NCBI RefSeq assembly: GCF_001029105.3 | Contig: NZ_CP011807.3 | Coordinates: 2,356,001 to 2,420,000 of the forward strand | Source: Pandoraea faecigallinarum | Lineage (GTDB): Bacteria; Pseudomonadota; Gammaproteobacteria; Burkholderiales; Burkholderiaceae | Direction: 5' to 3' | Length of the DNA: 64,000 nt | Shown here: one piece after another, positions 8,655 to 47,217 of the stretch | Layout of the letters: every line of letters starts with the position of its first letter | How positions within the stretch are numbered: the stretch's first letter is position 1 | The notes under the pieces: generated by a model | The model's database searches: none | Seen by the model: only the letters and a program-made list of their open reading frames with translations | Told to the model about the DNA's origin: nothing | Position numbers and translations under genes: made by a program

Positions 8655-8977
8655 CGCTCGCCCGCGCAAGGCGGGTCTACGGACGCCTGGGACCGCCTTT
8701 GCGGGCGGGCCCAGGCGCCCGGCGCTGTCTCAAATCGGCGTGCTAGAATCCCGCCCCATGCGTATGGAGATACAAAACCGATGGCCGGCCGGGGCGGCCA
8801 GACGGTGCGCCACAGACGGCGCGAACGCGGGAGCCGCGTTGATCCACCTCCAGCATGACGAAGCGCTGACCGAGCCGCGAGCGTTCGGCCGGGGCCGCCC
8901 CCCGAATTTCAAACTGCGCGTTGTGCCGGGACGGCGGCGACCGTCCTCTTGCGGCGACGCGTACGGGGGACGGAGCC
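8655..8977. other. Intergenic region with hairpin after the IclR gene
   Basis: It begins with a GC-rich hairpin. The rest holds a TAGAAT hexamer near 8745 that could be a -10 element for the following cyclase. No convincing gene is visible. Confidence 0.4.
8660..8706 (+). terminator. Possible terminator hairpin after IclR gene
   Basis: The arm from 8660 (GCCCGCGCAAGGCGG) pairs, with one bulge, with CCGCCTTTGCGGGC at 8693-8706, starting six bases after the stop codon. There is no clear T-run, so termination is only suggested by position. Confidence 0.4.
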
Positions 8978-10225
8978 ATGGCTCTTGGTTTGTCGCTACC
9001 GGCGTTGGACCTGCCGACATTACAGTTCGTGACCTTCCTGTTGAGCATTGCGACAGGCATTCTGTTCATGCTCGACGCCTTGCGGCGCGACGAAGCCGAA
9101 TCTCCCAGATGGTGGAGTCTCGCTTTTCTGCTCGCCACCTTTTCCCCCGTACTCTATCTGCTCGCCGCCCGCAGCACCCGGCTTGCCGTGCTGTATCCGC
9201 TGGGCAATGCCGTCGCAACGCTCGCGTTTGCCATGGTGTGGAGCGGTGCGCGGCGTTTCTATGGCCGCGGCGTGCAATGGGTCGCCGTATTCGGTGGTCC
9301 GGCCGTGCTGCTTTGGGGGACGTGGCTGTTCGCCCGGCCGCTGGACGCATGGAGCGGCGGCGTGCTGTTCTTCTCGCTGCTCGCGTTCTATAGCCTCATG
9401 GCGGGCAAGGAGTTCTGGCAGGCCTCGGGGCTGCGGCTGCCGAGCGCCATCGTGCTGGCGGTCGTTGCGGTGTTGCACGGGTCCTTTTATACCGCCCGGG
9501 CGGTCGCACTCGTCTGGCTCGGTCCGGCCGACGCGCAGTTCCTCGCTTGGTTCGGACCGCAGGTCTCCACGACGGAAATGCTGGTGTTGATCGTCGTGGC
9601 GAGTTTCCTGATGGTGTCGCTCGGCAAGGAGCGCTCCGAGATTGCACTTCACCGCGCCGCCACCCGCGACGGACTGACACAGGCGTTCAACCGGCCGGAG
9701 TTCACCCGTCTGGCGCGTGAGCAATTGCGACGTCACGGCGCCGCGCGCACGCCGGTGGCATTGCTTTTGCTGGACCTCGATCACTTCAAGCGCATCAACG
9801 ACACCTACGGGCATCCTTTCGGCGACACGGTGCTGGTGTTGTTCGCGCGCACGGCTTCGCGGCAATTGCGCTCGGACGACATCTTCGGACGATACGGCGG
9901 CGAGGAGTTCGCGCTGTTCCTGCCGGGCGTGGGCGCCAACGAGGCGCAGGCCATTGCGGAGCGCGTGCGCGCGGCGTTCGAGCGCGCAGCGCATAGGGTG
10001 CAGGGGGAAGCCGTGGCCGCGACGGTGAGTATCGGCATCGCCTGCGATGAACGGTCGCGCGGTGAGTTGTCGTCGCTCGTGCAACGCGCGGACCGGGCGC
10101 TTTATCAGGCGAAGGCCGCCGGGCGAAATCGCTGTGTGCGCTACACGCCCGACCCGATCATGCCGGAGGCCGACCCGTACGCCGACACGCCGGCGGCGCC
10201 GTTGCGTAGCGCGGCAGGCGGGTGA
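8978..10225 (+). CDS. Membrane-bound diguanylate cyclase (GGDEF)
   Basis: The 415-residue protein has about seven hydrophobic segments in residues 1-210 and a C-terminal GGDEF domain with the active-site motif GRYGGEEF. An RSDD sequence lies exactly five residues before GGEEF and matches the RxxD product-inhibition site, so the enzyme should make c-di-GMP from two GTP with feedback control. The N-terminal membrane part is not one I can name and is presumably a sensor. GGAG is rather close to the ATG; an upstream GGGGGA may act instead. An in-frame ATG at 8921 would add 19 residues without hydrophobic character. Confidence 0.85.
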   Translation: MALGLSLPALDLPTLQFVTFLLSIATGILFMLDALRRDEAESPRWWSLAFLLATFSPVLYLLAARSTRLAVLYPLGNAVATLAFAMVWSGARRFYGRGVQWVAVFGGPAVLLWGTWLFARPLDAWSGGVLFFSLLAFYSLMAGKEFWQASGLRLPSAIVLAVVAVLHGSFYTARAVALVWLGPADAQFLAWFGPQVSTTEMLVLIVVASFLMVSLGKERSEIALHRAATRDGLTQAFNRPEFTRLAREQLRRHGAARTPVALLLLDLDHFKRINDTYGHPFGDTVLVLFARTASRQLRSDDIFGRYGGEEFALFLPGVGANEAQAIAERVRAAFERAAHRVQGEAVAATVSIGIACDERSRGELSSLVQRADRALYQAKAAGRNRCVRYTPDPIMPEADPYADTPAAPLRSAAGG

Positions 10226-10311
10226 GGGCGGCAGGGAAGGCAGCAGTGAGGGCGATGCGAGCCACTCCGTTCTGTCGCCGCCGCTCGCGTTCGGGCGTGT
10301 GCTGAGTCATC

Positions 10312-13017
10312 CTACCAACGCCAGCGAAGACCGAGTGTGGCGGACACGCTCTGCTGGCGGGTGTCGTCGAGCTGCGTGAGGTAGGCGAGCGTGGCGTACA
10401 CGCTGGCATTCTTGTTGAAGCGTCCGGCCACGCCGATGCCGAACTGCGCGGCGGTACTGTTCGCGCTCGTCACGATCGGCGTGGTGCCGCCGAAAATTGC
10501 GCGCCCATCGTTGCCGAACGTATGCAGTAAATTGAACAGCAGATACGGTCTGAGCAGACCGCGCTCGCCGTCGTCGTTGGCTTCCAGACGGGCGCCGATT
10601 CGTGCCAGCCAGCTATTGGTGCTGTCGAACGACACCGTGGAGACGGCGTCGGTCAGGTCGTTTAGCGACTGATGCTGGTAGACGATCTGCGCCTGCGGCT
10701 CCAACGTCAACGCCGGACTCAGCCGGATCGGCCAGCCGGTCTCGAGCGACGCGGAGATCGCCTTGCCGTGCGTGCTCGTGTTCATTGCGCTGATCGGCCT
10801 GGACGCGTACTGCAGGGCGGAGCCGAGCACGACGGCGTCGACGTACGCCATGTTGGGCATCACGTGTGTCCAGTACAGCCCGACGCTGTACATGTCCAGC
10901 TCCAGCGATCCGGTGTGCGTGTCCATGGCGCCGAGGGCGCTGCCTTGCGTGTCGCCATACGCGCGCGTCCATCCGGCGAGGATCCCGAGATGGTCGTTAT
11001 GTCCGCTGTCCGTGCGGCGCGACACAATGTCGTGACCGACCTGCACGCCGCCGATGTTGCCATCGAACTGGGGCGAGACGTCTCCCTTCGCGCGATACTG
11101 CTCCGTTTGCCCCCACACGCGCGCCCAACCGGCCGGCAGCCATCCGTTCTCCGCGAGCAGGCCCTGCTGGCCTTGACGCTCGTGGAATGTCCCCATCTGC
11201 GCAAACCCCGCCACCCGCGCGATTTCCGGCATGGCCGAGTAGACCGGAACCTCGACACGATAGATCGGCATCGGCGCTGAGCCTTCGGCAGCGGTCGGCG
11301 GGCTGCCCGCGGCACCCACCGGCGAGAGCACCGTACTGACGGTTGCCCCCGTGACCGGATCGACGTAGGTCACGGCTGTCGCAACGGGGACCGTCGAGCG
11401 GAGGAACCAGCTATCCGCCGAGCCCGGCGTCGTACCGCCCTTGTACAAGTAATAGGTATAAGCGCCCTGACTTACCGGTCCGCTCAGGGCGAATGCACCC
11501 GCGCTCGACGTGGCGCCGCCCACGGCGTTCACCATGGGAATGCCGTTGCCGGTCGTGAGTCCGCCCGCACCGCCCAGGTTGTTGACGGCAAGGGTCGTGC
11601 TGCCGCCGATGGCTCCACCGCTTACGGTCAGCGGCGCGACCTTCGAAGCATCGTCGCCCAGCACCGTATCGATGACCAGCCTGCCACCCTGGCCCGTGTA
11701 GTTGCCTGCCACGGTGAGCGTGCCATTGCCCGCACCGTCGCCGGGATGAACCGTGCCGGCGCTGCTCAGATTGCCGGTGAGGGTGCCGGTCCCCGCGAGC
11801 GTGGCGCCGGCCGCGACCTGCGACGTCGCCCCCCCGAGCGCGCTGTTCAGATTGAACACGCCGCTCTGGAACTGTGCCGAGGTGAAGTTGCCGCTCCCGG
11901 TCCACGTCCAGGTCTCGCCTTGCATGTTGAGCGTGCCGAAGTTGACGAAGGCATTGCCGGCGGTGCCGGTTCCTTGCAAATTGACCCGGCTCACCGCACT
12001 GGCGCCGCCATTCGCCGTGCCGATGATCTGCGAACCGGTTTGCAGCGTGAGCGTATTGGAGCGCGCGGCGGCGTTCATGGCGATGGCCGTGCCCGCGTCG
12101 CTCTCGATCAGTCCGGCGTTGGTGATGGAGATCGTGCCGTTGACCGTGCGCACCGCGAACCCCTGCCGGCTGATGATCTGGCCCCCGGTCTGGTTGACGA
12201 TCGAGGAAGTGAAGCCCGAGGCCGTATTCGACACCACGGCGTCGCTGCTGATGCCCCGTGCTTCGATGTAGCCGCTGTTGGTGAAGTTGTTGTTGTTCCC
12301 CTGCATGAAGACAGTGAACGAGCGGTTCGATGCAGTGCCGCCCGTCGTGATGAGTGTGCCGCTGTTCGTTATCGTGCTTTGGCCGCCCACCACGCTGATG
12401 GCCCGGCCGCCGCCGCCGTGGGTCGTGATGGTACCGGTATTGACGAACGTGCTGTACAACCCGAGCCCCGAGGATTGCCCCCACGCGGCCGTCATGCCGA
12501 AAGCGTTCGGACCGTTGACGGTGATGGTGCCGTTGTTGGTGAGCGAGCCGTGGTTGCCGTTGATGGCCATGCCGTCGTTTTCGTAGCCCGATGTCGTGAT
12601 GACGCCGGTCGCGGTGTTGACGAGCGTGTTGTCGTCGTGGGCGCCGAGCATGGCGGCGCCGCGTCCCGGCTGACTCTGATTTGTCCCGGTGATGCTCACG
12701 GTACCGGCGTTGGTGATGGTGCTCGACGAGTCGACGGTGATGGTGGCGACGTCGGCGCTCGTGCGCACCGAGGTGACCGCGGCCCCTGGCTGCACGTTGA
12801 CCGTCACCCCGGTGCTTCCCGCCTGTGCGGCGACGATGCCGCCGGTGCCGGTGCACGTCACTGTTGTCCCGCTGGATGGCGCGACGTTGTCGCATGCGGC
12901 CCGTGCCTGCGCCATGAAGCAAAGCGAGAGGGCGAGGAGCAGCGGTTTGAGGGGCGAAGGGCACTGCGCAAATTCCGCAGCTTCGGCAGATGCAACGGCT
13001 CGAAACGAAGTCGTCAT
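10312..13017 (-). CDS. Type V autotransporter with beta-helical passenger
   Basis: This 901-residue protein has a long charged N-region of about 23 residues and then the signal peptide hydrophobic core PLLLALSLCFMAQARA. The passenger (about 45-640) is built from repeating N-x-G-T/S-I units (TNAGTVSITGT, TNNGTITVNGP, VNTGTITTHGG, TNSGTLITTGG) typical of right-handed beta-helix autotransporters. The final 260 residues are the beta-barrel translocator, ending LGLRWRW with an aromatic C-terminus as needed for barrel insertion. AGGAG precedes the ATG. It is probably displayed on or released from the surface, as adhesin or hydrolase; no catalytic motif is evident. It stands alone in its orientation. 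Confidence 0.88.
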   Translation of the reverse strand: MTTSFRAVASAEAAEFAQCPSPLKPLLLALSLCFMAQARAACDNVAPSSGTTVTCTGTGGIVAAQAGSTGVTVNVQPGAAVTSVRTSADVATITVDSSSTITNAGTVSITGTNQSQPGRGAAMLGAHDDNTLVNTATGVITTSGYENDGMAINGNHGSLTNNGTITVNGPNAFGMTAAWGQSSGLGLYSTFVNTGTITTHGGGGRAISVVGGQSTITNSGTLITTGGTASNRSFTVFMQGNNNNFTNSGYIEARGISSDAVVSNTASGFTSSIVNQTGGQIISRQGFAVRTVNGTISITNAGLIESDAGTAIAMNAAARSNTLTLQTGSQIIGTANGGASAVSRVNLQGTGTAGNAFVNFGTLNMQGETWTWTGSGNFTSAQFQSGVFNLNSALGGATSQVAAGATLAGTGTLTGNLSSAGTVHPGDGAGNGTLTVAGNYTGQGGRLVIDTVLGDDASKVAPLTVSGGAIGGSTTLAVNNLGGAGGLTTGNGIPMVNAVGGATSSAGAFALSGPVSQGAYTYYLYKGGTTPGSADSWFLRSTVPVATAVTYVDPVTGATVSTVLSPVGAAGSPPTAAEGSAPMPIYRVEVPVYSAMPEIARVAGFAQMGTFHERQGQQGLLAENGWLPAGWARVWGQTEQYRAKGDVSPQFDGNIGGVQVGHDIVSRRTDSGHNDHLGILAGWTRAYGDTQGSALGAMDTHTGSLELDMYSVGLYWTHVMPNMAYVDAVVLGSALQYASRPISAMNTSTHGKAISASLETGWPIRLSPALTLEPQAQIVYQHQSLNDLTDAVSTVSFDSTNSWLARIGARLEANDDGERGLLRPYLLFNLLHTFGNDGRAIFGGTTPIVTSANSTAAQFGIGVAGRFNKNASVYATLAYLTQLDDTRQQSVSATLGLRWRW

Positions 13018-13609: not shown

Positions 13610-15157
13610 TCAGTCCGCGGCGATGTGCATCATCTCGTCCGCTTCGTCGTGCTTACCCGGTGTTTTCTTTTTCATGCGGATGAACAGCAGCAGCGGCATG
13701 ACGGCAATCGTGAGGAAGAGCATCAGCCGGAAGTCGTCCAGATACGCGATCATCGCAGCCTGCCGCGTTACTTCGGCATTCAGGGCCGCCATGGCCGCCG
13801 TGCCGTACATCTGCACGTAACTCTCGATGCCCTGCGTGAATGGCGTGATTCGCTCGGAGAGCACCGCGTGATTGACCTGTGTGTTCTGTGTGAGAAGCGT
13901 CTGCACGACCGAAATGCCGATGCTGCTGCCGATATTGCGCGACAGGCTGTAAATCGCGGCGCCATCGGCACGGAATTGCCCCGGCAGGGTAGCGAAGGTG
14001 ACTGTGGTCAGCGGCACGAACACGAAGCCCAGCCCGAAGCCCTGAATCACACCCGGCCAGACGATGTCCGACGGACTCAGCGTAAGCGAGTAGCCCGCCA
14101 TCAGGTACAGGGAGTAGGCCGTCAGCGCGAATCCGAAGCCCAGCAGATACCGCACGTCGACCTTGCCCACGAGGCGTCCGACGACCAGCATGGCAGCCAT
14201 CGTCCCGGCGCCCGAAGGCGCGGTCACCAGGCCGGTGAGAATGGCGGGATACCCGAACAGGCTTTGCAGCATGGGCGGGAGCAGCGCGCGCGTGGCATAG
14301 AGAATGATGCCGACCACGAAGATGTAAATGACGCCCGTGTTGAAGTTCCGGTCGCGCAACAGGGCCCGATTGAAGAAAGAATGCTCGCCCGCTGTCCACG
14401 TGTGAACGACGAAGTACGCGAAACATACGATGGCGCCGAGCATCTCCACCCAGATTTCCGTGGAACTGAGCCAGTCCTGTTGTTCGCCCCGGTCGAGCAA
14501 AAGCTGCAGCAGGCCGATGGCAAGCCCGAGCGTGACGAAGCCTAACGCATCGAACTTCCCCGCCTTTTGCTCCTGCGGCTCTTTCAGATAGGCCGCGATG
14601 CCGAGAAAGGCGATCAGGCCGATGGGCAGGTTGATGTAGAACACCCAGCGCCAGTTGTAGCTATCGGTGAGCCAGCCGCCGAGCGACGGTCCGAGAATCG
14701 GCCCCACCATCACGCCCATCCCGAACACGGCCATGGCCGAGCCGTGCCTGCTCGGCGGGTTGATGTCGAGCATGGTCGCTTGCGACAGCGGAACGAGGGC
14801 GGCACCGCATATGCCCTGAAACAGCCGTGCTGCCACGATTTCGGTGAGCGAGTGCGCCATGCCGCACAGCGCAGAGGCGATGGTGAAGCCCGCGACCGAC
14901 CACAGGAAGACGCGGCGCCGTCCGAAGCGCGCGCAAAGTGTGCCGGTGAGCGGCGTGGCGATGGCCGCAGCCACGATATAGGACGTCAGCACCCAGGTAA
15001 TCGAGTCCTGCGACGCGGACAGGCTGCCCTGCATGTGCGGCAGTGCGACGTTGGCGATGGTGCTGTCGAGTGTCTGCAACACCGTCGCGAGCATGACGGA
15101 GATGCTCACGAGCGCCCGATGTTGGCCGGGGTCGTCAGCTTTAGCGGGGGATGCCAC
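13610..15157 (-). CDS. DHA2-family drug:H+ antiporter (EmrB/QacA type)
   Basis: The 515-residue protein has about 14 hydrophobic helices and the family hallmarks: LDSTIANVALPHMQGSL in helix 1 (motif D1), ARFGRRR in the first cytoplasmic loop (motif A) and GPILGPSLGGWLTDSYNWRWVFYINLP in helix 5 (motif C and after). It should export drugs or toxic organics with the proton gradient. It begins with GTG preceded by AGAGGA. A MarR regulator lies 120 bp upstream on the same strand, the classic EmrR-EmrB layout, but no EmrA adaptor is adjacent. Confidence 0.9.
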   Translation of the reverse strand: MASPAKADDPGQHRALVSISVMLATVLQTLDSTIANVALPHMQGSLSASQDSITWVLTSYIVAAAIATPLTGTLCARFGRRRVFLWSVAGFTIASALCGMAHSLTEIVAARLFQGICGAALVPLSQATMLDINPPSRHGSAMAVFGMGVMVGPILGPSLGGWLTDSYNWRWVFYINLPIGLIAFLGIAAYLKEPQEQKAGKFDALGFVTLGLAIGLLQLLLDRGEQQDWLSSTEIWVEMLGAIVCFAYFVVHTWTAGEHSFFNRALLRDRNFNTGVIYIFVVGIILYATRALLPPMLQSLFGYPAILTGLVTAPSGAGTMAAMLVVGRLVGKVDVRYLLGFGFALTAYSLYLMAGYSLTLSPSDIVWPGVIQGFGLGFVFVPLTTVTFATLPGQFRADGAAIYSLSRNIGSSIGISVVQTLLTQNTQVNHAVLSERITPFTQGIESYVQMYGTAAMAALNAEVTRQAAMIAYLDDFRLMLFLTIAVMPLLLFIRMKKKTPGKHDEADEMMHIAAD

Positions 15158-15276: not shown

Positions 15277-15777
15277 TTATTCCGGTTCGGTCTCCTGGGC
15301 GACGTCGCCCTCGGGCTTCGCGCAAGGGGGACTTTCGGCTTCGGCGCGGGTCAGATTCGTCAGCACCTTGCCGAGCAGACGCGAGAGTTCGGCACGCTCG
15401 GCCGGTGTCAGGTCGGCCAACGCTTCGCGCTCGGTCGCGTTCGCGAAGGCCACGATGGTGTCGATCTTGGCCTCGGACGCCTGCGTGAGATAGAGCAGAT
15501 GGGCGCGTTTGTCGTGCGGGTCGCGCTCGCGCGTCACCAGCCCCTTTTCGCGCAGACGGTCGAGCAAGCGCACGAGCGCCATCGGCGTGAGCTCCATGCG
15601 CTCGGCAAGCTCGGCCTGTGTCTGTACGCCGTAGCGGTGCAGCATCACCAGCACGCGGCATTGCGCGCGTGTCAGATCGAAGTTGCCCCGGGCACGCCGG
15701 TCGAAGAGCCGCGAATGAACGCGGGCAACATCGTGGACCAGCGTGCCGAACCGGGATGACCAGTCGATTTTCGGCAT
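15277..15777 (-). CDS. MarR-family transcriptional regulator
   Basis: This 166-residue protein carries the MarR winged helix: LTRAQCRVLVMLHRYGVQTQAELAERMELTPMALVRLLDRL, then wing residues VTRERDPHDKRAHLLYLT. The length and the DxRxK-type wing (DPHDKR) fit the family. It probably represses itself and the downstream MFS pump, releasing DNA when a phenolic or lipophilic ligand binds. The tail after residue 145 is acidic and probably disordered. A palindrome, TAAACAGGTTTA, lies about 75 bp upstream. Confidence 0.9.
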   Translation of the reverse strand: MPKIDWSSRFGTLVHDVARVHSRLFDRRARGNFDLTRAQCRVLVMLHRYGVQTQAELAERMELTPMALVRLLDRLREKGLVTRERDPHDKRAHLLYLTQASEAKIDTIVAFANATEREALADLTPAERAELSRLLGKVLTNLTRAEAESPPCAKPEGDVAQETEPE

Positions 15778-16181
15778 GGCGTCGTTATGGCGTCGTTATG
15801 GCGGCCCGGGCACGACACGTCGTCATGCCGCGTTGACCGGCGATATTAGTAAACAGGTTTATCATTTTGCCAGAGTCAATCTTCGGACGGCAACTGTCGC
15901 AAATACGTGACAGCGGACCGCGGGAGGCGGACGACGAAAGGGCATTTCAGGCCGTTTCCGGGGGGCGCGCGGCGCCGGATGGGGCGCCACGCGGGTTCCG
16001 GGGAGGTTGGCACGACGAACGGACGGGGTGCGGGGCGGTACCCGGCATACTGTGAAAAACCTAACGAAAATAAGCACTTGACACTTCGCCCCGGCGGATC
16101 AAGAAAGGAATTGTGCGATGCACAGGCGGGAGCGCCCGTGTACGGCACCAGCCCTTTCATTGACCTTAAGGAGTGTCAATC
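15778..16181. other. Divergent intergenic region, MarR / acyltransferase
   Basis: The left end is AT-rich and holds a palindrome. The right end carries TTGACA at 16078-16083 without a good -10 at the usual distance. AAGGAG at 16168-16173 serves the acyltransferase. The open frames here have no coding character. Confidence 0.5.
15850..15861. promoter_or_regulatory. Candidate MarR operator
   Basis: TAAAC-AG-GTTTA is a perfect inverted repeat in AT-rich DNA upstream of the marR-pump operon, a size and place typical of MarR sites. No binding evidence is available from sequence alone. Confidence 0.45.
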
Positions 16182-17081
16182 ATGTTTGACCTTGCACAAG
16201 CTTCGGACGTCCTCTCGATCACCTACGCCGACAGGCCGGCCGGTAACCTTCGCGCGGCGGCATCACCCGCTGCGGCCCGTGCGCCGGTCGCCGGTTTGCC
16301 GGATACCGCGGCGTTGCGCGAAGAACGTCTGCCTTTCGTCGTCACGATTGCAACCGACGAATCGTCGTTGCGCGACGCCGTCGCCATGCGTCAGGCCGCT
16401 TACGGGCGACACCTGCCCGAGCTTGCCGCCACACTGGGCGAGCCGGAAATCAGCGACCGCGAGCCGGGCGCCATCGTGCTCGTGGCGCGCGCGCGTCTGG
16501 ACGGCGCCGTGCTCGGCACGATGCGTATTCAGACCAATCGCTTTCAGGCATTGCACCTGGAGGACTCCGCGCCGTTGCCGGAGTGGCTCGGCAGCGCCGC
16601 GCTTGCCGAAGCGACGCGTCTTGGCGTTGTCGCGGGACCCGTGGGCCGTGTCGTCAAGACGGCGCTTTTCAAGGCGTTCTATCAGTACTGCCTGCTTTCG
16701 GGCATCGACTGGATGGTGATCACCGCGCGCCCGCCGCTGCATCGACAGTACGAGGCGCTCATGTTTATCGACGTATTCCCGCTGCAGGATCTGATTCCGA
16801 TGGCGCATGTGGGCGGCATCGGGCACCGGGTACTGGCCCTTGACGTGGCGCAGGCACGCACGCGCTGGCAAACGGCGGGGCATCCGTTGTTTGCCTACAT
16901 GTGCCTGACACACCACCCCGATCTGCGCCTCGGAATGCCGGGTGAGCGCGAAGGCGGGGACGGTGGCCGCGACGCCGCGCCGGAGCCGGTCGAAGCCAAT
17001 GTTGGCGCGCATTTGCGGGATTTATCTTTTGGTGCCGACGAGGTACGATGCGTAGCAGCAGGCTACAGCCTGGCGGTGTAA
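16182..17081 (+). CDS. FeeM-like N-acyl amino acid synthase (GNAT/AHL-synthase fold)
   Basis: The 299-residue protein has LRDAVAMRQAAYGRHLPE, a GTMRIQTN strand, EATRLGVV, an ALFKAFYQYCLLSGIDWMVITARPPLHRQYEALMF helix-strand block and DVFPLQDL. This order matches the catalytic core of FeeM-type enzymes, which join an acyl chain from acyl-ACP to an amino acid and share the fold of acyl-homoserine-lactone synthases. Residues 1-45 and the last 50 are poorly conserved. AAGGAG lies eight bases before this ATG, so it is preferred over GTG 16173. It is followed, 220 bp on, by a 7TM c-di-GMP protein, which suggests a role in signalling or envelope lipids. Other acyltransferases of the same fold cannot be excluded. 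Confidence 0.72.
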   Translation: MFDLAQASDVLSITYADRPAGNLRAAASPAAARAPVAGLPDTAALREERLPFVVTIATDESSLRDAVAMRQAAYGRHLPELAATLGEPEISDREPGAIVLVARARLDGAVLGTMRIQTNRFQALHLEDSAPLPEWLGSAALAEATRLGVVAGPVGRVVKTALFKAFYQYCLLSGIDWMVITARPPLHRQYEALMFIDVFPLQDLIPMAHVGGIGHRVLALDVAQARTRWQTAGHPLFAYMCLTHHPDLRLGMPGEREGGDGGRDAAPEPVEANVGAHLRDLSFGADEVRCVAAGYSLAV

Positions 17082-17301
17082 TGCCGTTATGCGAATTAAC
17101 GTTATCCCGTCGCATGTCATTCGGGTTTTCGACAGCGACGGCGCTAACGGGGAGTACGGGCGAGAGACACCTGACCGTGCCGGCCGCAACACCGGCCGCA
17201 CGGGACAGGGCCGGCCCGGCCGGCAAGGCGAGCAGCCGCAGCGCGAACCTTGTCCGGGATTGCACACGGGGGCGACCAACGGATAAGGGCACAAGAGTCA
17301 T

Positions 17302-20300
17302 ATGGCGGGGGAACCCGGTAACGAGCGTGACGATCACGGCCGCAATACGAACGATTTCTCCGATGAGTTGAGCGAACTCACCGGCGCGCGTCGCCGTTGG
17401 CGCATCACAGCGAGACTCGACGAGCTTTTTCGAAGCATTTCCCTGTATGCCGTGCCCGCGGCGATCATGTTGCTCTCGGGCATCGTGCTGCTGTTTCAGG
17501 AAAGCCAGTACGCCGTGCGCGGTGCGACGCCGCTCAGTTTTCAGGCGCAAGGCGATTTACCCGCGACGTTCAGCCCGCCCATGGCGAAGGGCGCACTCGA
17601 GCGTGCGCCGTCTGTCCAGCAATTCAGCACTCATCTCTCCGAAGCGCCGGTGTGGTTCCGGGTCACGGTGCCGCCGGTCGGCGCTCAGGAACGCACCGTC
17701 ATCGAGTTTCCTTCGCGCCACGCGAAGACGCTGGCCTGTTGGCGAAGCCCGGACAGCCCGGCGATCGGTCGTGCGGATCGCAGCGGCGTAACGGGGGCCG
17801 TGCGCATGTCGAAGGCCGGCTTCATGATCGATCTCGGCCATCTCGTCGAACCCGTGACGCTGCTTTGTCAGGCGACGTTCTCCGGCCCGGCGCATCTCTC
17901 GCTCGTGGCCTGGCCCGCGCCCGAGCTGCGCATTTCCGAGAAGGAATTTCACCGCAGCAACGGGTTGCTCGAAGGCGGCCTGTTGACGCTGTCGGCTTTC
18001 GTGCTGGTCACTGCCATCATCAACAAGGAATGGCTGTATGTGCTGTTCGCCGCGTGGCTGATCGGCAATCTGCGTCTCGCGGCGAACTCGATGGGGGCCG
18101 ATACGCAATGGCTCGAACGGGCCATTCCGATGGACTGGGACGCCCTGGTGCGCAAGGCGACCTTCGCGGTCTATTACGTGCTGACGTACTCGCTGTTCAC
18201 ACAGTTGTTCAAGAAAGAGCTGCGCCTGATCGGGTTGCGGTGGATGGTGATGGTGCTGCAATGGGCCGGCGTCGTGCTGTGCTGCGCCGCCATTGCGTTG
18301 CCGTACGCTCACTTCATTCCCGTGCTTTGGGCCGTGGCGGCGCTGGGCATCGTGTTCGTACTGGTGTTGCTCGCGCGCATTCTGGTGCTGACGCGCTCGC
18401 GCGTGGCGGTCTGGTACAGCGCGTCGCTTGCCATCGTTCTGTTCGCCACGTTTTCCGAAGTGATTGCGGCCGCCTTCAACGCCCGCGCCTTGTCCTCGGC
18501 GCTCAATAGCGTGACGGCGGCGCTGTTCTCGAGCCTGATGGCCGCACTCGCCATCGCCGAGCAGATGCGCATGGAGCACAAGGGCAAGCTCGAAGCCCAG
18601 ACCGAACTGCGCAATGCCTACGATGTCACGCCCGTGGGGCTGTTCACCCTGAACGATCAGGGCGTGTTCGTGCGGGGGAACGCCGCGCTGCACACCATGC
18701 TCGGCATTCCCCTGGGCATTCCCAATACGCAGGGCCGCACGTACCGCTGGGACCAGTACTTCGGGCAGAGCACGTGGCGCATGTTGCTCGACGTCGCCCA
18801 GCACAGTGACGAATCCGAACTCGAAATCCTCTCGCTGCCGCGCGACGACGGCCGGGTCAGCCGCTATCTGGTCAAGGCGATCTTCTCCGACGGCCGTATC
18901 GAAGGCTCCTTGCAGGACATCACGGAACGTGCGCGCACGATGGAGCAATTGCGCTATCTCGCGGAGAACGATCCGCTGACCGGGGTTTCGAACCGGCGCG
19001 GGATCGAGAAGTCGCTCGGCGAGGCCATCCGGACGCTATCGGAGACGCGCCCCGCGGCGCTCGCCTATCTGGATCTGGACCGCTTCAAGCTCGTCAACGA
19101 TCTGTTCGGGCATGCCGCGGGCGACGAAGTGCTGCGTCAGGCGTGCGACCGCATGCGCGCCCGGTTGTCGGCGGAGCAGAGCGTCGGGCGCACCGGTGGC
19201 GACGAATTCATCGTGGTGTTTCGCGATGCGACCATCAAGGAGGCAGCGGCCGTGGCGCGCCGCCTGGTCGACGCCATTGCCGGCGAGCCGTATCAGATCG
19301 GCGATCGCGCGTTCCAGGTGCGTGCGTCGGCCGGGGTCATCGAACTCACGACGGACATGCGCGTGCCCGACGCGATTTCCTCGGCCGACCGCGCCTGCCG
19401 CGAAGCCAAGAAGAGCCGGCGCGAGCTGGTCGTCTACGAGCGCGGGGCGGCGGCATTTCGCGAGCGTCTGGCCGAACTGCGTCTGATCGATGCGCTCGAC
19501 GCCGGCCTCGCGCCCAACACGCTGTTCCTCGAAATGCAGCCGATCATGGAGATGGCTGCGCCGGGCGATTCGCTGAACTTCGAAGTGCTGCTGCGCATGC
19601 GCGATTCCGACGGCAACATCGTGCCCGCGTCGCGCATCATCAGCGCGGCCGAAGAGAACGGCACCATCGGTATGATCGACAAATGGGTGCTCACGAACAC
19701 CTTGACATGGATCGACGCACATCGCGACCAACTCGAGAAGACGCGTTTCGTTTGCGTGAACCTGTCGGGTGCGTCGCTCAACGACGAGCATTTCGTGCGG
19801 GACATCTTCGCCACGCTCGCCGCGCACGAGCGCGCTGTCGGATTGTTGTGCATCGAGATCACGGAAACGGTGGCGCTGCACGATCTGGACAACACGCGGC
19901 GCTTCGTGGATCGCATCCATCAACTGGGCGGGCGCATCGCGCTCGACGACTTCGGCGCGGGGTTCAGTTCGTTTTCCTATCTCAAGGATCTTGCAGTCGA
20001 CGCGATCAAGATCGATGGCGCGTTCGTCAAGAGCATGGCGGCCCATCCGGCCAATCTCGCTATTGTCGAGGCTATCGTGGCGCTGGCGAAAAATCTTGGC
20101 ATCCGGAGTGTGGCGGAGTGGGTGGAAGATGCCGCGACGCTCGAAGCGCTCTCCGAGCTTGGCGTCGACTATGTGCAGGGCTTTCTCATTGCACGCCCGC
20201 AAACGCCGGAAGCCATTCTCGCGGCTGACTCGGCAGCGAGTTTCGTACGCGATCCGCAACTTAGCGCGTTGCTCGTCGAGTTGGAAGCGTCCTTTTATCC

Positions 20301-20331
20301 GCGCGCGAGCGGCAGCACGGCGTTGCACTGA
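17302..20331 (+). CDS. 7TM receptor with PAS, GGDEF and EAL domains
   Basis: In this 1009-residue protein, one helix at about 49-65 leads to a periplasmic domain of about 150 residues. Some seven helices at 222-425 follow, a layout like 7TMR-DISM receptors. A PAS domain spans about 435-545, GGDEF about 550-715 (TGGDEF at 631-636) and EAL about 725-985. The EAL signature reads EVLLR at 761 and DDFGAG is present at 882-887, so hydrolysis of c-di-GMP is plausible; GGDEF is also intact but no RxxD inhibition site precedes it. It probably tunes c-di-GMP in response to an external ligand. The upstream neighbour encodes a lipid-signal-type acyltransferase. Confidence 0.88.
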   Translation: MAGEPGNERDDHGRNTNDFSDELSELTGARRRWRITARLDELFRSISLYAVPAAIMLLSGIVLLFQESQYAVRGATPLSFQAQGDLPATFSPPMAKGALERAPSVQQFSTHLSEAPVWFRVTVPPVGAQERTVIEFPSRHAKTLACWRSPDSPAIGRADRSGVTGAVRMSKAGFMIDLGHLVEPVTLLCQATFSGPAHLSLVAWPAPELRISEKEFHRSNGLLEGGLLTLSAFVLVTAIINKEWLYVLFAAWLIGNLRLAANSMGADTQWLERAIPMDWDALVRKATFAVYYVLTYSLFTQLFKKELRLIGLRWMVMVLQWAGVVLCCAAIALPYAHFIPVLWAVAALGIVFVLVLLARILVLTRSRVAVWYSASLAIVLFATFSEVIAAAFNARALSSALNSVTAALFSSLMAALAIAEQMRMEHKGKLEAQTELRNAYDVTPVGLFTLNDQGVFVRGNAALHTMLGIPLGIPNTQGRTYRWDQYFGQSTWRMLLDVAQHSDESELEILSLPRDDGRVSRYLVKAIFSDGRIEGSLQDITERARTMEQLRYLAENDPLTGVSNRRGIEKSLGEAIRTLSETRPAALAYLDLDRFKLVNDLFGHAAGDEVLRQACDRMRARLSAEQSVGRTGGDEFIVVFRDATIKEAAAVARRLVDAIAGEPYQIGDRAFQVRASAGVIELTTDMRVPDAISSADRACREAKKSRRELVVYERGAAAFRERLAELRLIDALDAGLAPNTLFLEMQPIMEMAAPGDSLNFEVLLRMRDSDGNIVPASRIISAAEENGTIGMIDKWVLTNTLTWIDAHRDQLEKTRFVCVNLSGASLNDEHFVRDIFATLAAHERAVGLLCIEITETVALHDLDNTRRFVDRIHQLGGRIALDDFGAGFSSFSYLKDLAVDAIKIDGAFVKSMAAHPANLAIVEAIVALAKNLGIRSVAEWVEDAATLEALSELGVDYVQGFLIARPQTPEAILAADSAASFVRDPQLSALLVELEASFYPRASGSTALH

Positions 20332-20816: not shown

Positions 20817-21839
20817 ATGCTTTCGACAATCCTCAAACTCGTCTACCGTCACAGCCACGCGGCGAAGTGGCGGCACAACGAACGTTTGTGGCCGCACGCG
20901 CGTATCGAGCGCGATGCGATGGGGGCCATCGAACGATTCACCTGGCGCGGCCGTCACGTGCCGCTCGCGCGCCGCGCCGAGCTGCAACGTCTGCGACGCC
21001 TGCCTTGCCATATCATCGCCAGCGGACCGTCGGTCGCCGAGATCGACTACGAAGCGCTGCCGATGCATCACGTCATGGGCGTGAACGGTGCCATCGCGCT
21101 CAGCGCCCATGCGCCCGTCAAGTTCGACTACTACTGCATTCTCGACGCCGGTTTCGTGCGTCAGCGCCCGGATCTGGCGCGTCGGATCGTGGCGCGCGAT
21201 CTCGTGCTGTTCGTCACGCCGGTCGTGCTGGCGCGTTTGCTGGACATGTTCCCGGTGTCGGCGCTCGGGTGCCGCTTCTATCTCGTCGACGATATTTACA
21301 AACGTGGATTCGAAGCCGCACGCACGACCCGGATGCTGCGCGACGACGCGCAGATATCGGCCAGCGCCTCGTTTCTTGGCGACGACAGCGAGATCGGTTT
21401 CAGCTTCGATATCGACAACGGCTTCTTCCACGGCGGCACCGTGGCGTACTTCGCGTTGCAGGTTGCGACCTGGCTTGGGTTCACCGAGATGTACATGCAC
21501 GGACTCGATTTGCGCGATGCGTCGCACACGCCGCGCTTCTACGAGACGATGCAAACCCGCGCACCCACCCGGCTGGATGCCGAGTTCGCCAATCTGATCG
21601 AGCCGTCATTCCGGCATGCCTCGCAAGTCTTGCGCCTGCGTGGCGTGCGTGTCGAAAACCTGTCGCCTGCGAGTGCGCTGGGCGAGGACATCTTCGGGAA
21701 GGTCGACTGGCGTTCGCTGCGCCGCCGGAATCTGAGTCTGGTCATGCCGGACGAGGCATTGCCGGTCGCGGCCGTGGGCAGTGTGGCAGTCGATGCCATG
21801 CCCACGTTGCGCCCCACCGGAACGCACGGGCACGCATAA
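20817..21839 (+). CDS. Putative LPS core glycosyltransferase (WaaZ/Kdo-III-transferase-like)
   Basis: The 340-residue soluble protein has the loop HIIASGPSVAEID near residues 65-77, then VNGAIALS, FDYYCILDAGFV, a HGGTVAYFALQVATWLGFTEMYMHGLDL block and a conserved RFYE. An N-terminal GPS loop plus a late Gly-rich strand with an acidic Asp is shared by DUF115-like and WaaZ-type sugar or Kdo transferases acting on lipopolysaccharide core. I make the LPS assignment from resemblance only. It is monocistronic, with a 485-bp leader and no evident Shine-Dalgarno, so the start is uncertain; Met35 is a possible alternative. Confidence 0.5.
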   Translation: MLSTILKLVYRHSHAAKWRHNERLWPHARIERDAMGAIERFTWRGRHVPLARRAELQRLRRLPCHIIASGPSVAEIDYEALPMHHVMGVNGAIALSAHAPVKFDYYCILDAGFVRQRPDLARRIVARDLVLFVTPVVLARLLDMFPVSALGCRFYLVDDIYKRGFEAARTTRMLRDDAQISASASFLGDDSEIGFSFDIDNGFFHGGTVAYFALQVATWLGFTEMYMHGLDLRDASHTPRFYETMQTRAPTRLDAEFANLIEPSFRHASQVLRLRGVRVENLSPASALGEDIFGKVDWRSLRRRNLSLVMPDEALPVAAVGSVAVDAMPTLRPTGTHGHA

Positions 21840-41659: not shown

Positions 41660-43789
41660 TTAGGCCATTGCCGGTGCGCCGGGTATGCCGGGCAGCGAAG
41701 CGAGCAGCCGGGCGAATGCGTCGCTCGTGAGCGGTTTGCCGAGCAGGAAGCCTTGTAACTCGTCGCAATCGAGGGTTCTGAGCGCTTCGCGTTGCGACGC
41801 CGTTTCGACACCTTCGGCCACAACGTCCATGTCGAGCGAGTGCGCCAGTGCGATGATGGCCGAGACCACGGCGCTGCCTTCGCGCCCGCAGGTATCCAGA
41901 CCGTTCGTGAAGAAGCGATCCATCTTCAGCTGCTTCACGCGAAAGCGCTGCAGGTAAGCCAGACTCGAATAACCGGTGCCGAAGTCGTCGATGGCGACCT
42001 CGAAGCCATGGTCCTGAAATGCGCGGATGACGTCGACGGTGTGCTGCGCGTCGGACATCGCCACCGTCTCGGTAATTTCGAACATCAGGCGCGAACAGGC
42101 GATTCCGGCGTTTCGAACGATCTCCACAATATTCTCGACGAGCAGCGACTGCGCCATCTGGCGAGGCGACAGGTTGATCGCGACCTTCACCGGCGGCAGT
42201 CCTGCCGCATCCCATTCCTTGATGTGACGGCAGGTCTCGCGAACGACCCAGTAGCCGATCTGCACGATCTGCCCGGTGCGCTCGGCCACCGGAATGAAGT
42301 CGGCCGGCTGCAACTCGCCGAACGTCGGGTGCGTCAGACGCAGCAGCGCTTCGGCGCCGGCCAGCGCTTCGGTATCGCCTCGATATTTGGGCTGGAAGTG
42401 CAGCGAAAAATACTGCTCGTTCTCGGCGTCGTGCAAGGCCTGCTGGATCTCCCAGGTGCGCTGCGCGGCGGCGTTCATGCGCGGCTCGAAATAGCGGAAA
42501 ATGCCGCGCCCGGCGCACTTGGCCTCGTACATGGCGGTGTCGGCGTGCTTGAGCAGCAGGTCGATGCTGTCGCCGTCGTCCGGGAACAACGCCACACCGA
42601 TACTCGGCATCACGTGCAACGACTGATTGCCGACCTTCAGGCCGTCGCGCATGTCGTCGAGCAGCCGTTGCGCCACGCGGCCCGCGACTTCGGGCGAGGA
42701 CAACGATCCGAGCAGCACCACGAATTCGTCGCCGCCCAGGCGGGCCACCACGTCGTCACCGTTCACGTTCTTGCGCAAGCGCTTGGCAAAGGCGCGCAGC
42801 ACGTCGTCCCCCACGTTGTGGCCGAGCGAATCGTTGATCGTTTTGAAACCGTCCAGATCCATGAACAGCACCGCGAAACGACGCTGATCGCGGCGCGAGT
42901 TGATCAGCATGCGCGCCGCGGCGTCGTGCAGCGCACGGCGATTGGGCAGATCGGTCAGCGCATCGTAGGTCGCCATGCGCGCGATCTGGGTGTTGAGTTG
43001 CAACACGGAGGTGGCGAGGAAGCTGGTTCGGGCGTCGAGCCGCGAGACAAGCAGGGTGGTGACCAGAATCAGGAACGTGAAGAGGCTGACGGTCGTGACC
43101 AGCCACGACGAACTCACCCCATTGGCCGCCCCGCACACGGCGCCCGCGGCGAAGCTCGCCGCGGACATCCCCGTGTAGTGCATTGCCGTGATGGCAAGCC
43201 CCATGACGCAGGCGGCGCCCACGCGCTTGGCCATGACATAGCGCAGGCTGCCGTCGCGCAGGGTCCTCGCAATCCAGAGCGCGGCTGTGGCGGCGGCAAT
43301 CGCTATGAGGATCGACGCAATGAAGAGCGCCGGATCGTAGCGGATGGCCGGGTCCATTTTCATGGCGGCCATGCCCGAGTAGTGCATGGCGGCGATGCCC
43401 AGGCCGAGGGTAATGCCCGCGCCGGCCAGACGCCACCGTGTGAAACGTTCGCTCGCCACGAGCCACAGCGCCGCCCACGAGATAGCGATGGCGATGCCGA
43501 GCGAGGCCGCTGTAATGGCCGGGTCGTAGCCGAGCGGGATGGTTTTCGCGGCCAGCGGCGTCAACGATGGCGACAGCGATGGCGGCAGCGAGAGGGCGAG
43601 CATGCCGATGAAGTGCATCGACCAGATGCCGATGCCCATGGCGGTCGCGCCCACGGCGAGCCACGCGTGACGCATGCCGCGGTGGGTCAGGAGATAGATG
43701 CGACCTGAAAGATCGAGCGCCGTAAACGACGCCAGCACTGCAACTGCAAGCGATAGCGCAACGAGCCAACCACTGTACGAACTGGACAT
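41660..43789 (-). CDS. MHYT-GGDEF-EAL c-di-GMP enzyme
   Basis: In this 709-residue protein, the N-terminal membrane domain carries three MHYT-type repeats (MHFIGM, MHYSGM, MHYTGM), proposed to hold copper and sense O2, CO or NO. A GGDEF domain follows, with RLGGDEFVVLL near residue 350, then EAL with GAEALLR near 480, ETVAM and DDFGTGYSSLAYL. Both catalytic signatures look complete, so the protein could make or break c-di-GMP, depending on the signal. It ends close to the hxlR gene (56 bp, convergent). No Shine-Dalgarno is obvious. Confidence 0.93.
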   Translation of the reverse strand: MSSSYSGWLVALSLAVAVLASFTALDLSGRIYLLTHRGMRHAWLAVGATAMGIGIWSMHFIGMLALSLPPSLSPSLTPLAAKTIPLGYDPAITAASLGIAIAISWAALWLVASERFTRWRLAGAGITLGLGIAAMHYSGMAAMKMDPAIRYDPALFIASILIAIAAATAALWIARTLRDGSLRYVMAKRVGAACVMGLAITAMHYTGMSAASFAAGAVCGAANGVSSSWLVTTVSLFTFLILVTTLLVSRLDARTSFLATSVLQLNTQIARMATYDALTDLPNRRALHDAAARMLINSRRDQRRFAVLFMDLDGFKTINDSLGHNVGDDVLRAFAKRLRKNVNGDDVVARLGGDEFVVLLGSLSSPEVAGRVAQRLLDDMRDGLKVGNQSLHVMPSIGVALFPDDGDSIDLLLKHADTAMYEAKCAGRGIFRYFEPRMNAAAQRTWEIQQALHDAENEQYFSLHFQPKYRGDTEALAGAEALLRLTHPTFGELQPADFIPVAERTGQIVQIGYWVVRETCRHIKEWDAAGLPPVKVAINLSPRQMAQSLLVENIVEIVRNAGIACSRLMFEITETVAMSDAQHTVDVIRAFQDHGFEVAIDDFGTGYSSLAYLQRFRVKQLKMDRFFTNGLDTCGREGSAVVSAIIALAHSLDMDVVAEGVETASQREALRTLDCDELQGFLLGKPLTSDAFARLLASLPGIPGAPAMA

Positions 43790-45642: not shown

Positions 45643-47217
45643 ATGCCGAGGCACCGATTGAAGGCGCTGAAGGCGCGTATTGCGACGGCCGCCATTGCCG
45701 TGAGTACGGCGGTGCGATGGGTATCGCGCACGCCGACGCTCATCGTATGGAGCGGCGTGGGAATCTCCGTGCTGGTCATGGGGGTTGCCGTAGCGTTGCT
45801 CTATGAGGGCCGGCTACTGGTGCTCGCGCGCGCTTCGGACAATCAACGCAACATCGCCGAAGTGATGGAGCGCGACCTCGAACTCAACTTTCGCGTCTAC
45901 GAGGCCTCGCTCGACGCGGTCGTGAAACTGCTCGCGCGCCCGGATGTCGAAGCGCTCACCCCGGCGCTGCGGCGGGAGCTTATTTTCGAGCGGGCAGGGG
46001 CGTCGCGCTATATTGGGTCGCTGGTGGTGCTCGATCCTCAGGGCAATATCGTCATTGATGCCGAGAGCGAAATGCCGCGCCCCTTCAATTTTTCGGATCG
46101 CGACTATTTCACGGTGCATCGCGACGACGCGCAGGCCGGGCTGTTCGTGAGCGGCTTCCTGCATTCCCGGTTGCGGGGCAACGCGCCGACGATGGTACTC
46201 AGCCGGCGCATTACGCGTGCTGACGGCTCCTTCGGCGGCGTGGTGTCGCTCGCGGTCGATACCGAATATTTCCGGCAATTGTTCGATCACATCGAGGTCG
46301 GACGCGACGGGGTGATCCTGCTGTTGGGCAAGGACGGCGCAATTCTCATGCGCAAGCCATACGACGAGACCGTGATTGGTGCCACGATGGCGCAGACTGG
46401 CCGTTACGAAGCACTGCCGCCCGGGCGGGACGACCACCGCATCTACCCGATTCGCTTTCTTGGCCGCGACAGCCTGATGTCGCGCCGGTTCCTGAGCAAC
46501 GTGCCGCTCACACTGATCGTCGTGACGTCGAGCGAAGAAACGCTGGCGCCCTGGCACAAGCGGGTAATCGAGTTCGGCGGCCTGTTCCTGTTGCTCAACA
46601 TCGGGTTCGTCGCCACGTCGATGTTGCTCGCCGCACAATTGCGGCGGCGCTTGCGGGCCGAGCGGGAATTGAGTCTGCTGGCCCGGACCGACGGCCTGAC
46701 AGGTCTGTCGAACCGCCGCTCGCTCGACAAGATTCTGGCCGGCGAATGGCGGCGCATGCGTCGCGCGGGGCATCCGATGGCGGTGGCATTCATCGATATC
46801 GACTGGTTCAAGCGTTACAACGACACGCATGGTCATCAGGCGGGCGATGCGGCCCTGGCCGCGGTGGCGAGCGCCATCGGGACGGCGCTGCAACGGCCGT
46901 CCGATGCCGCCGGGCGGTACGGCGGAGAGGAATTCATCGCCGTGCTGCCCGATACCGACACGATGGGTGCGCAGCGGGTGGCCGAAGGAATTCGGCTTGC
47001 CGTCGATCGTCTGAACCTCGCCCATGCATCGAGCGATTTCGGTCATGTGACGGTGAGCGTCGGCGTGGCGTGCCGCAAGCCCGCCGCCGGGGAGTCGGTC
47101 GATGTCCTCGTCAAGGCGGCCGACGATGCGCTGTATCGCGCAAAGGCTACCGGCCGCAATCGGGTCATCGTCGCGCCGGACGGCAACGTGCCGTCGGCAG
47201 CCAGCACGGCCACCTGA
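45643..47217 (+). CDS. dCache-sensor diguanylate cyclase
   Basis: In this 524-residue protein, a helix at about 30-52 and another at about 307-330 enclose a periplasmic double-Cache domain (GSLVVLDPQGNIVIDAESEMPRPFNFSDRDYF; VSLAVDTEYFRQLF). The C-terminal GGDEF domain has GRYGGEEF near 425-432, and RPSD five residues before GGEEF is an RxxD inhibitory site. It should produce c-di-GMP in response to a small periplasmic ligand such as an amino or organic acid. The ATG overlaps the end of the DUF2252 gene region (TGACATG), indicating coupling with that gene. Confidence 0.9.
   Translation: MPRHRLKALKARIATAAIAVSTAVRWVSRTPTLIVWSGVGISVLVMGVAVALLYEGRLLVLARASDNQRNIAEVMERDLELNFRVYEASLDAVVKLLARPDVEALTPALRRELIFERAGASRYIGSLVVLDPQGNIVIDAESEMPRPFNFSDRDYFTVHRDDAQAGLFVSGFLHSRLRGNAPTMVLSRRITRADGSFGGVVSLAVDTEYFRQLFDHIEVGRDGVILLLGKDGAILMRKPYDETVIGATMAQTGRYEALPPGRDDHRIYPIRFLGRDSLMSRRFLSNVPLTLIVVTSSEETLAPWHKRVIEFGGLFLLLNIGFVATSMLLAAQLRRRLRAERELSLLARTDGLTGLSNRRSLDKILAGEWRRMRRAGHPMAVAFIDIDWFKRYNDTHGHQAGDAALAAVASAIGTALQRPSDAAGRYGGEEFIAVLPDTDTMGAQRVAEGIRLAVDRLNLAHASSDFGHVTVSVGVACRKPAAGESVDVLVKAADDALYRAKATGRNRVIVAPDGNVPSAASTAT

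Follow-up and report, generated by a model that had tools for sequence, protein, structure and literature searches.

The window analysed here, a stretch of 64,000 nucleotides (nt) from the forward strand of Pandoraea faecigallinarum (NZ_CP011807.3, positions 2,356,001-2,420,000; genome of 5.73 Mb), carries two neighbouring genes, for a FeeM-like N-acyltransferase (hereafter the synthase) and for a membrane receptor with GGDEF and EAL domains, that are linked in other species as well. The original prediction had placed this pair at 16182..20331, and the pair proved to be real, with exact coordinates, both genes on the same strand and 220 nt between them. Its features are as follows (aa, amino acids; TM, transmembrane; 7TM, seven-transmembrane).

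16168..16173, + strand: Shine-Dalgarno-like AAGGAG, 8 nt 5' of the ATG at 16182, read from the sequence
16182..17081, + strand: FeeM-like N-acyltransferase, putative N-acyl amino acid synthase, 299 aa
16326..16940, + strand: GNAT/FeeM core of the synthase, residues 49-253
16608..16619, + strand: E143-A-T-R146 motif of the synthase
17082..17301, + strand: spacer between synthase and receptor, 220 nt
17302..20331, + strand: membrane receptor, TM - periplasmic beta-sandwich - 7TM - PAS - GGDEF - EAL, 1009 aa
17497..17916, + strand: periplasmic sensor domain, residues 66-205, RetS-like jelly roll
17917..18618, + strand: seven-helix membrane domain, PF07695 7TMR-DISM_7TM, residues 206-439
18607..18921, + strand: PAS-like region, about residues 436-540 (PAS_8, 17.3 bits, cut-off 21.8)
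18964..19422, + strand: GGDEF domain, strong match
19492..20199, + strand: EAL domain, EVL in the window copy, strong match

The GTG at 16173 is a less likely start of the synthase than the ATG at 16182, no terminator-like site was found on the + strand of the spacer, and the closest relatives of both proteins in a database search come from Pandoraea.

Linkage of the two genes was followed in genome searches that applied thresholds of E<=1e-3 for the synthase and E<=1e-20 for receptor residues 30-540, and that scored at most 4-7 candidates per genome, such that copies may be missed. Within the family (299 genomes), the synthase was found in 81 genomes, the receptor in 81 and both in 79, each gene occurring in 8 of 25 genera, and in all 79 the receptor lies 3' of the synthase on the same strand with <1 kb between the matched parts. 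Across the order (349 genomes, including G000 and G009 from the family set again), both genes occur in the same 17 genomes, from 10 of 147 genera and five families; the pair is adjacent, on one strand and with the receptor downstream in 16 of the 17, and in the remaining one (G503) each gene lies at a contig end. Fisher tests of co-occurrence gave 2e-67 for the family and 3e-29 for the order, values that overstate independence because the genomes are related. A search of 321 genomes of the class with the synthase alignment A1 as profile matched only the window's own genome. Co-occurrence in many genomes, one of the checks proposed with the original prediction, is thus borne out.

Similarly, in a set of named genomes made up of the best 80 of 313 relatives (Pandoraea, Caballeronia, Paraburkholderia, Collimonas, Pigmentiphaga, Achromobacter, Rhodoferax, Rhodocyclaceae and others), the receptor is present in all 80 loci and lies directly downstream of the synthase, at a gap of 3-409 nt, in 77; the two genes share a strand in 78, the other two loci being Extensimonas loci (L055 and L057) in which they stand tail to tail. 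No third conserved gene was seen in these loci, some of which end at contig ends, the best other neighbour family being present in 17. In one Burkholderiaceae locus of the 80 (L062), what is probably a radical SAM gene, judged by eye, separates the two (9883-11457); it may encode a tailoring enzyme. In G048, G072 and G228, three divergent genomes from the genus of the window, synthase (57-58%) and receptor (43%) have both diverged, as if the pair had been exchanged as one; both genes are absent from two more genomes of the genus, G192, which is of ordinary size, and G010, which is reduced. Since the genes stay together while the surrounding genes change, the pair probably works as one unit, and it is close to certain that the two genes are coupled.

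The synthase points to the FeeM family by sequence and by modelled fold. FeeM (PF21926) is its sole Pfam match at E<=1, at 26.5 bits against a cut-off of 27 and hence 0.5 bit short, with neither a PilZ nor a cyclic nucleotide (cNMP)-binding domain found; among the 20 members of alignment A1, PF21926 is matched at E<=0.01 in 19 (best 1.4e-8) and is the only Pfam family at that threshold, and PF21926.3 is annotated in the database on many Pandoraea relatives. In a structure comparison with VIA-align, which compares only the 1000 chains ranked highest by Foldseek, FeeM ranks first for the synthase model, 3.3 Z units ahead of the next solved structure, which assigns a FeeM fold to the model; confidence is mostly low in the first 48 and the last 46 residues of that model. 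E143 is the probable equivalent of the catalytic Glu95 of FeeM, as the aligned ranges (49-234 of the synthase to 2-185 of FeeM) place it at about 94-96, by offset only and not by residue pairing. E143 is kept in 79 and R146 in all 80 loci, and both are invariant in the 99 sequences of alignment A2. A sequence search for solved relatives returned none for the synthase alone and one chance match for its profile. An assignment to the acyl-homoserine lactone (AHL) synthases of the LuxI family was tried and rejected, PF00765 not being matched at E<=1 and FeeM being better by fold; a distant feeM protein, for its part, hits an AHL synthase (1.6e-4), and 2G0B is not among its matches.

These features suggest that the synthase probably joins an acyl chain to an amino acid. 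A product of another kind, such as an N-acyl amine, an ester or an acylated peptide or protein, is the less probable outcome whichever way the two proteins act on each other: the likeness to FeeM is remote in sequence, the substrate is not readable from the fold, a phylum search with PF21926 at E<=0.001 left the window's own genome unmatched, and a profile comparison of the synthase with distant feeM genes was not significant (a weak comparison, with one wrong-frame open reading frame among its 9 rows), whereas the clear first rank of FeeM in the structure comparison speaks for the N-acyl amino acid.

In the receptor, RetS is the nearest solved fold to the periplasmic sensor by structure comparison, and the fold in the model is of DISMED2 type; by sequence, the sensor profile gave two matches to solved structures, both by chance. 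C146, C189 and S138-R139-H140 are invariant in the periplasmic domain, where they possibly form a disulphide and a ligand site. Seven helices follow this domain in the model. PF07695 scores 28.4 bits on a 440-residue piece and 26.1 on the whole window receptor (cut-off 29), is matched at E<=0.1 in 56 of 56 family members (best 6.2e-10) and, as PF07695.18, is annotated in the database on many relatives. Moreover, the GGDEF motif is intact in all 79 full receptor copies (the L082 receptor, cut by a contig end, being excluded), as are the EAL-domain positions E-N-E-E-D-D-K-E-Q, whose roles in that domain are assumed here; an RxxD inhibitory site is neither present in the window receptor nor conserved across its family. 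With both catalytic motifs intact, the receptor is predicted to be a bifunctional enzyme of cyclic di-GMP (c-di-GMP).

Outside the class, a similar association appears with another receptor. Of the 30 top-ranking PF21926 loci from the phylum search, each taken with a 1.5 kb flank on both sides, 21 contain an EAL or GGDEF-EAL gene no more than 1.5 kb from feeM; they come from related genomes and fall in two families, f250 (Bradyrhizobium by name of its relatives) and f253. With 5-27 EAL matches per genome (six genomes), one to two genes per hundred would, by estimate, lie this near one by chance. Of the wider regions fetched, 11 of 20 hold a GGDEF-EAL gene near feeM, encoding a membrane protein of 770-802 residues with 3-6 hydrophobic N-terminal segments; it lies upstream of feeM in 10 of the 11, and a PAS domain was found in all 7 of the 11 partners that were scanned. 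None of the partners matches the sensor of the window receptor, and their N-terminus differs: the association of feeM with GGDEF/EAL genes recurs with a different receptor. Two further distant loci stand out by their gene content. In a locus of f252 (L162:5031-8667), genes for FeeM, a PEMT/ICMT-like methyltransferase (under cut-offs) and a PAS-GGDEF-EAL protein overlap by a few bases, as would be expected if the methyl ester of an N-acyl amino acid were produced next to a c-di-GMP enzyme; in another (L166:4196-6036), FeeM is fused to a cNMP-binding domain in NasP-like fashion and adjoins a leucine carboxyl methyltransferase-like gene.

The relation between the two proteins was approached through partial correlations of synthase divergence with the divergence of each receptor part, the truncated L082 receptor being left out. 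In the 61 loci outside Pandoraea, partial r was 0.53 for the periplasmic part (bootstrap 0.39-0.65; largest in 500 of 500 bootstraps), 0.29 for 7TM, 0.08 for PAS, 0.14 for GGDEF and -0.02 for EAL; in all 79 loci the values were 0.40, 0.14, 0.29, 0.06 and 0.05 in the same order, and in 32 thinned loci 0.37, 0.29, 0.16, -0.04 and 0.09. The periplasmic part ranks first in all three sets, and the second place varies. These results are consistent with a make-and-sense pair, in which the synthase would take an acyl chain from acylated carrier protein (acyl-ACP) or acyl-CoA and join it to an amino acid or a related amine; the amphiphile would leave the cytoplasm or remain in the membrane, and the receptor would perceive it through its periplasmic domain or 7TM bundle and relay the ligand state through PAS to the GGDEF/EAL output. 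The amount of lipid, a cell's own or its neighbours', would then set c-di-GMP and so attachment or motility, with the sign of the effect, a rise or a fall, not being readable from sequence. Sensing of the product is favoured because RpfF/RpfR offers a precedent, because the synthase has no nucleotide-binding domain, because the association recurs with another receptor and because the synthase diverges more in step with the periplasmic and 7TM parts than with the output parts; that the product is sensed and its amount sets c-di-GMP is given about an even chance. Of the make-and-sense system first proposed, the strongly conserved two-gene unit, linked in other species, has held up, and sensing by the receptor is what we still infer.

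Several observations weigh against sensing of the product. With Pandoraea included, the divergence signal is weaker and PAS comes second, above 7TM; the ranking is confounded because in most loci no part of the receptor gene lies closer to the synthase than the periplasmic one, and recombination could give the same order. The pairing also has exceptions, namely a synthase alone in G185 and G281, a receptor alone in G044 (full-length) and G227, an unpaired second synthase in G015 and an unpaired second receptor in G108. G185, G281 and G227 are small or fragmented genomes left with broken or split pieces only, a GGDEF-EAL piece still adjoining the synthase pieces of G281; the same holds for G179, G215, G271 and G296, where both genes were found, which suggests joint decay of the two. 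Of the distant feeM loci, 9 of 30 (families f8, f49, f240, f241, f242, f252 and f257) lack a GGDEF/EAL match within 1.5 kb; in the f252 case (L135/L162) a GGDEF-EAL gene begins in the flank and its GGDEF/EAL part is cut off there. For the sensor fold of RetS type, moreover, carbohydrates are the predicted ligands, as stated for 7TMR-DISMED2 domains (PMC8846402). Control may instead run in reverse, with the receptor sensing another cue, e.g., a glycan or the state of the envelope, and c-di-GMP or direct contact governing a synthase whose acyl amino acid would be made as an end product, for instance a surfactant, an antibiotic or an envelope lipid. Precedents for control of the enzyme exist in NasP, a FeeM relative activated by cyclic AMP, in Nas343/Nas354, which carry a PilZ domain for which their authors proposed regulation (PMC4897644), in the FeeM-cNMP fusion of L166 and in the FI domain of RpfR, which binds and inhibits RpfF (PMC6361424). 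However, the window synthase has no PilZ or cNMP domain and A1 members match only FeeM, so reverse control would need a separate effector; synthase divergence also tracks the sensor half above the output half, within the confounding by DNA distance noted above. Reverse control is considered rather unlikely, and sensing of the product is retained as the preferred reading.

The surroundings of the pair lie outside the conserved core and comprise the following local neighbours, both divergent from the pair.

13610-15157, - strand: EmrB-type exporter of the major facilitator superfamily
15277-15777, - strand: MarR regulator

The EmrB-type exporter family is present in 16 of the 80 loci. A WaaZ-like Kdo transferase lies 3' of the pair at 20817-21839 (TIGR04437, 71 bits against a cut-off of 200), and a large autotransporter-like protein, judged by eye, lies at 10312-13017 on the - strand and adjoins a GGDEF gene at 8921-10225. 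Of the 28 GGDEF matches in the genome, 4 sit in the 64-kb window (9659-10132, 18964-19422, 42506-42973 and 46684-47163), about 0.3 being expected if they were evenly spread. Near the pair, a search for c-di-GMP riboswitches and other RNAs gave a single Rfam match up to E 1, far under its gathering score, a promoter scan found no sigma-70-like site, and terminator-like sites (5, against a shuffle mean of 4.7) were not in excess. The transferase and the exporter would suit two genes that serve a common process, such as attachment or envelope remodelling, and are kept in one operon with neither acting on the other, and operon-like order and spacing require no ligand relation. Yet a plain operon is expected neither to be jointly present or absent across five families while its neighbours change nor to recur elsewhere with a different receptor, which leaves this explanation as the most improbable of those considered.

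RpfF-type synthases have a crotonase fold; the synthase here, with its modelled FeeM/GNAT fold and no Pfam match but FeeM at E<=1, is not of that type. RetS is a hybrid sensor kinase. The receptor here has the 7TM domain and a predicted RetS-like periplasmic fold in common with RetS and other 7TMR-DISM receptors and, unlike RetS, has a PAS-GGDEF-EAL output and a gene tied to a lipid synthase. From the LuxI family the synthase is set apart by the lack of a PF00765 match and a clearly better match to FeeM. It is remote in sequence from FeeM and the N-acyl amino acid synthases, including NasP and Nas343/Nas354; those three have cyclic nucleotide domains of their own (PMC4897644), whereas the enzyme here has no fused PilZ or cNMP domain and is linked to a separate GGDEF-EAL receptor. 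A close parallel in arrangement is RpfF/RpfR of Burkholderia and Cronobacter, where a PAS-GGDEF-EAL receptor accompanies a signal synthase (PMC6361424): as here, the gene for the synthase of a fatty signal (Burkholderia diffusible signal factor, BDSF) adjoins the receptor gene, and the product is read out as c-di-GMP (PMC6361424, PMC8846402), as is proposed here. RpfF makes a free fatty acid from acyl-ACP, RpfR is an FI-PAS-GGDEF-EAL protein in place of the periplasmic jelly roll and 7TM found here, and rpfF and rpfR are convergent, whereas the genes described here share a strand in nearly all loci. The TrzA/TrzS locus of mycobacteria and Rhodococcus likewise includes an amino acid N-acyltransferase gene, which in Mycobacterium tuberculosis lies beside c-di-GMP turnover genes, a likeness of gene context; for this trzAS locus, which serves N-acyl-tryptophan, the authors regard the arrangement as consistent with signalling, and TrzS cyclises and desaturates the TrzA product (PMC12856293), a kind of gene not seen here. 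Among the literature matches listed, in a search that most subscription journals lay outside, no description was found of a FeeM-type synthase paired with a GGDEF/EAL receptor. The claim that no system of exactly this kind had been described thus agrees with this search, with the qualification that RpfF/RpfR is a known synthase-receptor pair and that the adjacency at trzAS had been remarked. The pair falls within the kind of synthase and c-di-GMP receptor exemplified by RpfF/RpfR and departs from that example in synthase fold and sensor.

For two decades, knowledge of FeeM-type enzymes has come mostly from environmental DNA clones. The near-perfect gene pair, some carriers of which are cultured, opens a direct genetic test of the role of FeeM lipids and of lipid sensing by c-di-GMP networks. 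Among the stimuli of c-di-GMP networks, a review from 2022 includes BDSF, a fatty acid, together with RpfR, and states that lipid sensing is predicted for such networks, with the sensor domain yet to be identified (PMC8846402). The two-gene module, as judged from its sequence, would couple lipid synthesis to c-di-GMP, perhaps as a new lipid signal with its sensor, and it supplies a candidate ligand for one group of 7TMR-DISM c-di-GMP receptors. More tentatively, and with somewhat less than an even prospect, FeeM-type N-acyl amino acids or esters with their linked membrane GGDEF-EAL receptors may form a signalling family apart from AHL and diffusible signal factor (DSF), with one type of receptor in Burkholderiales and a second type shared by Bradyrhizobium and a further family outside the class; if so, lipid of the membrane or of neighbours would be converted by this separate family into c-di-GMP.

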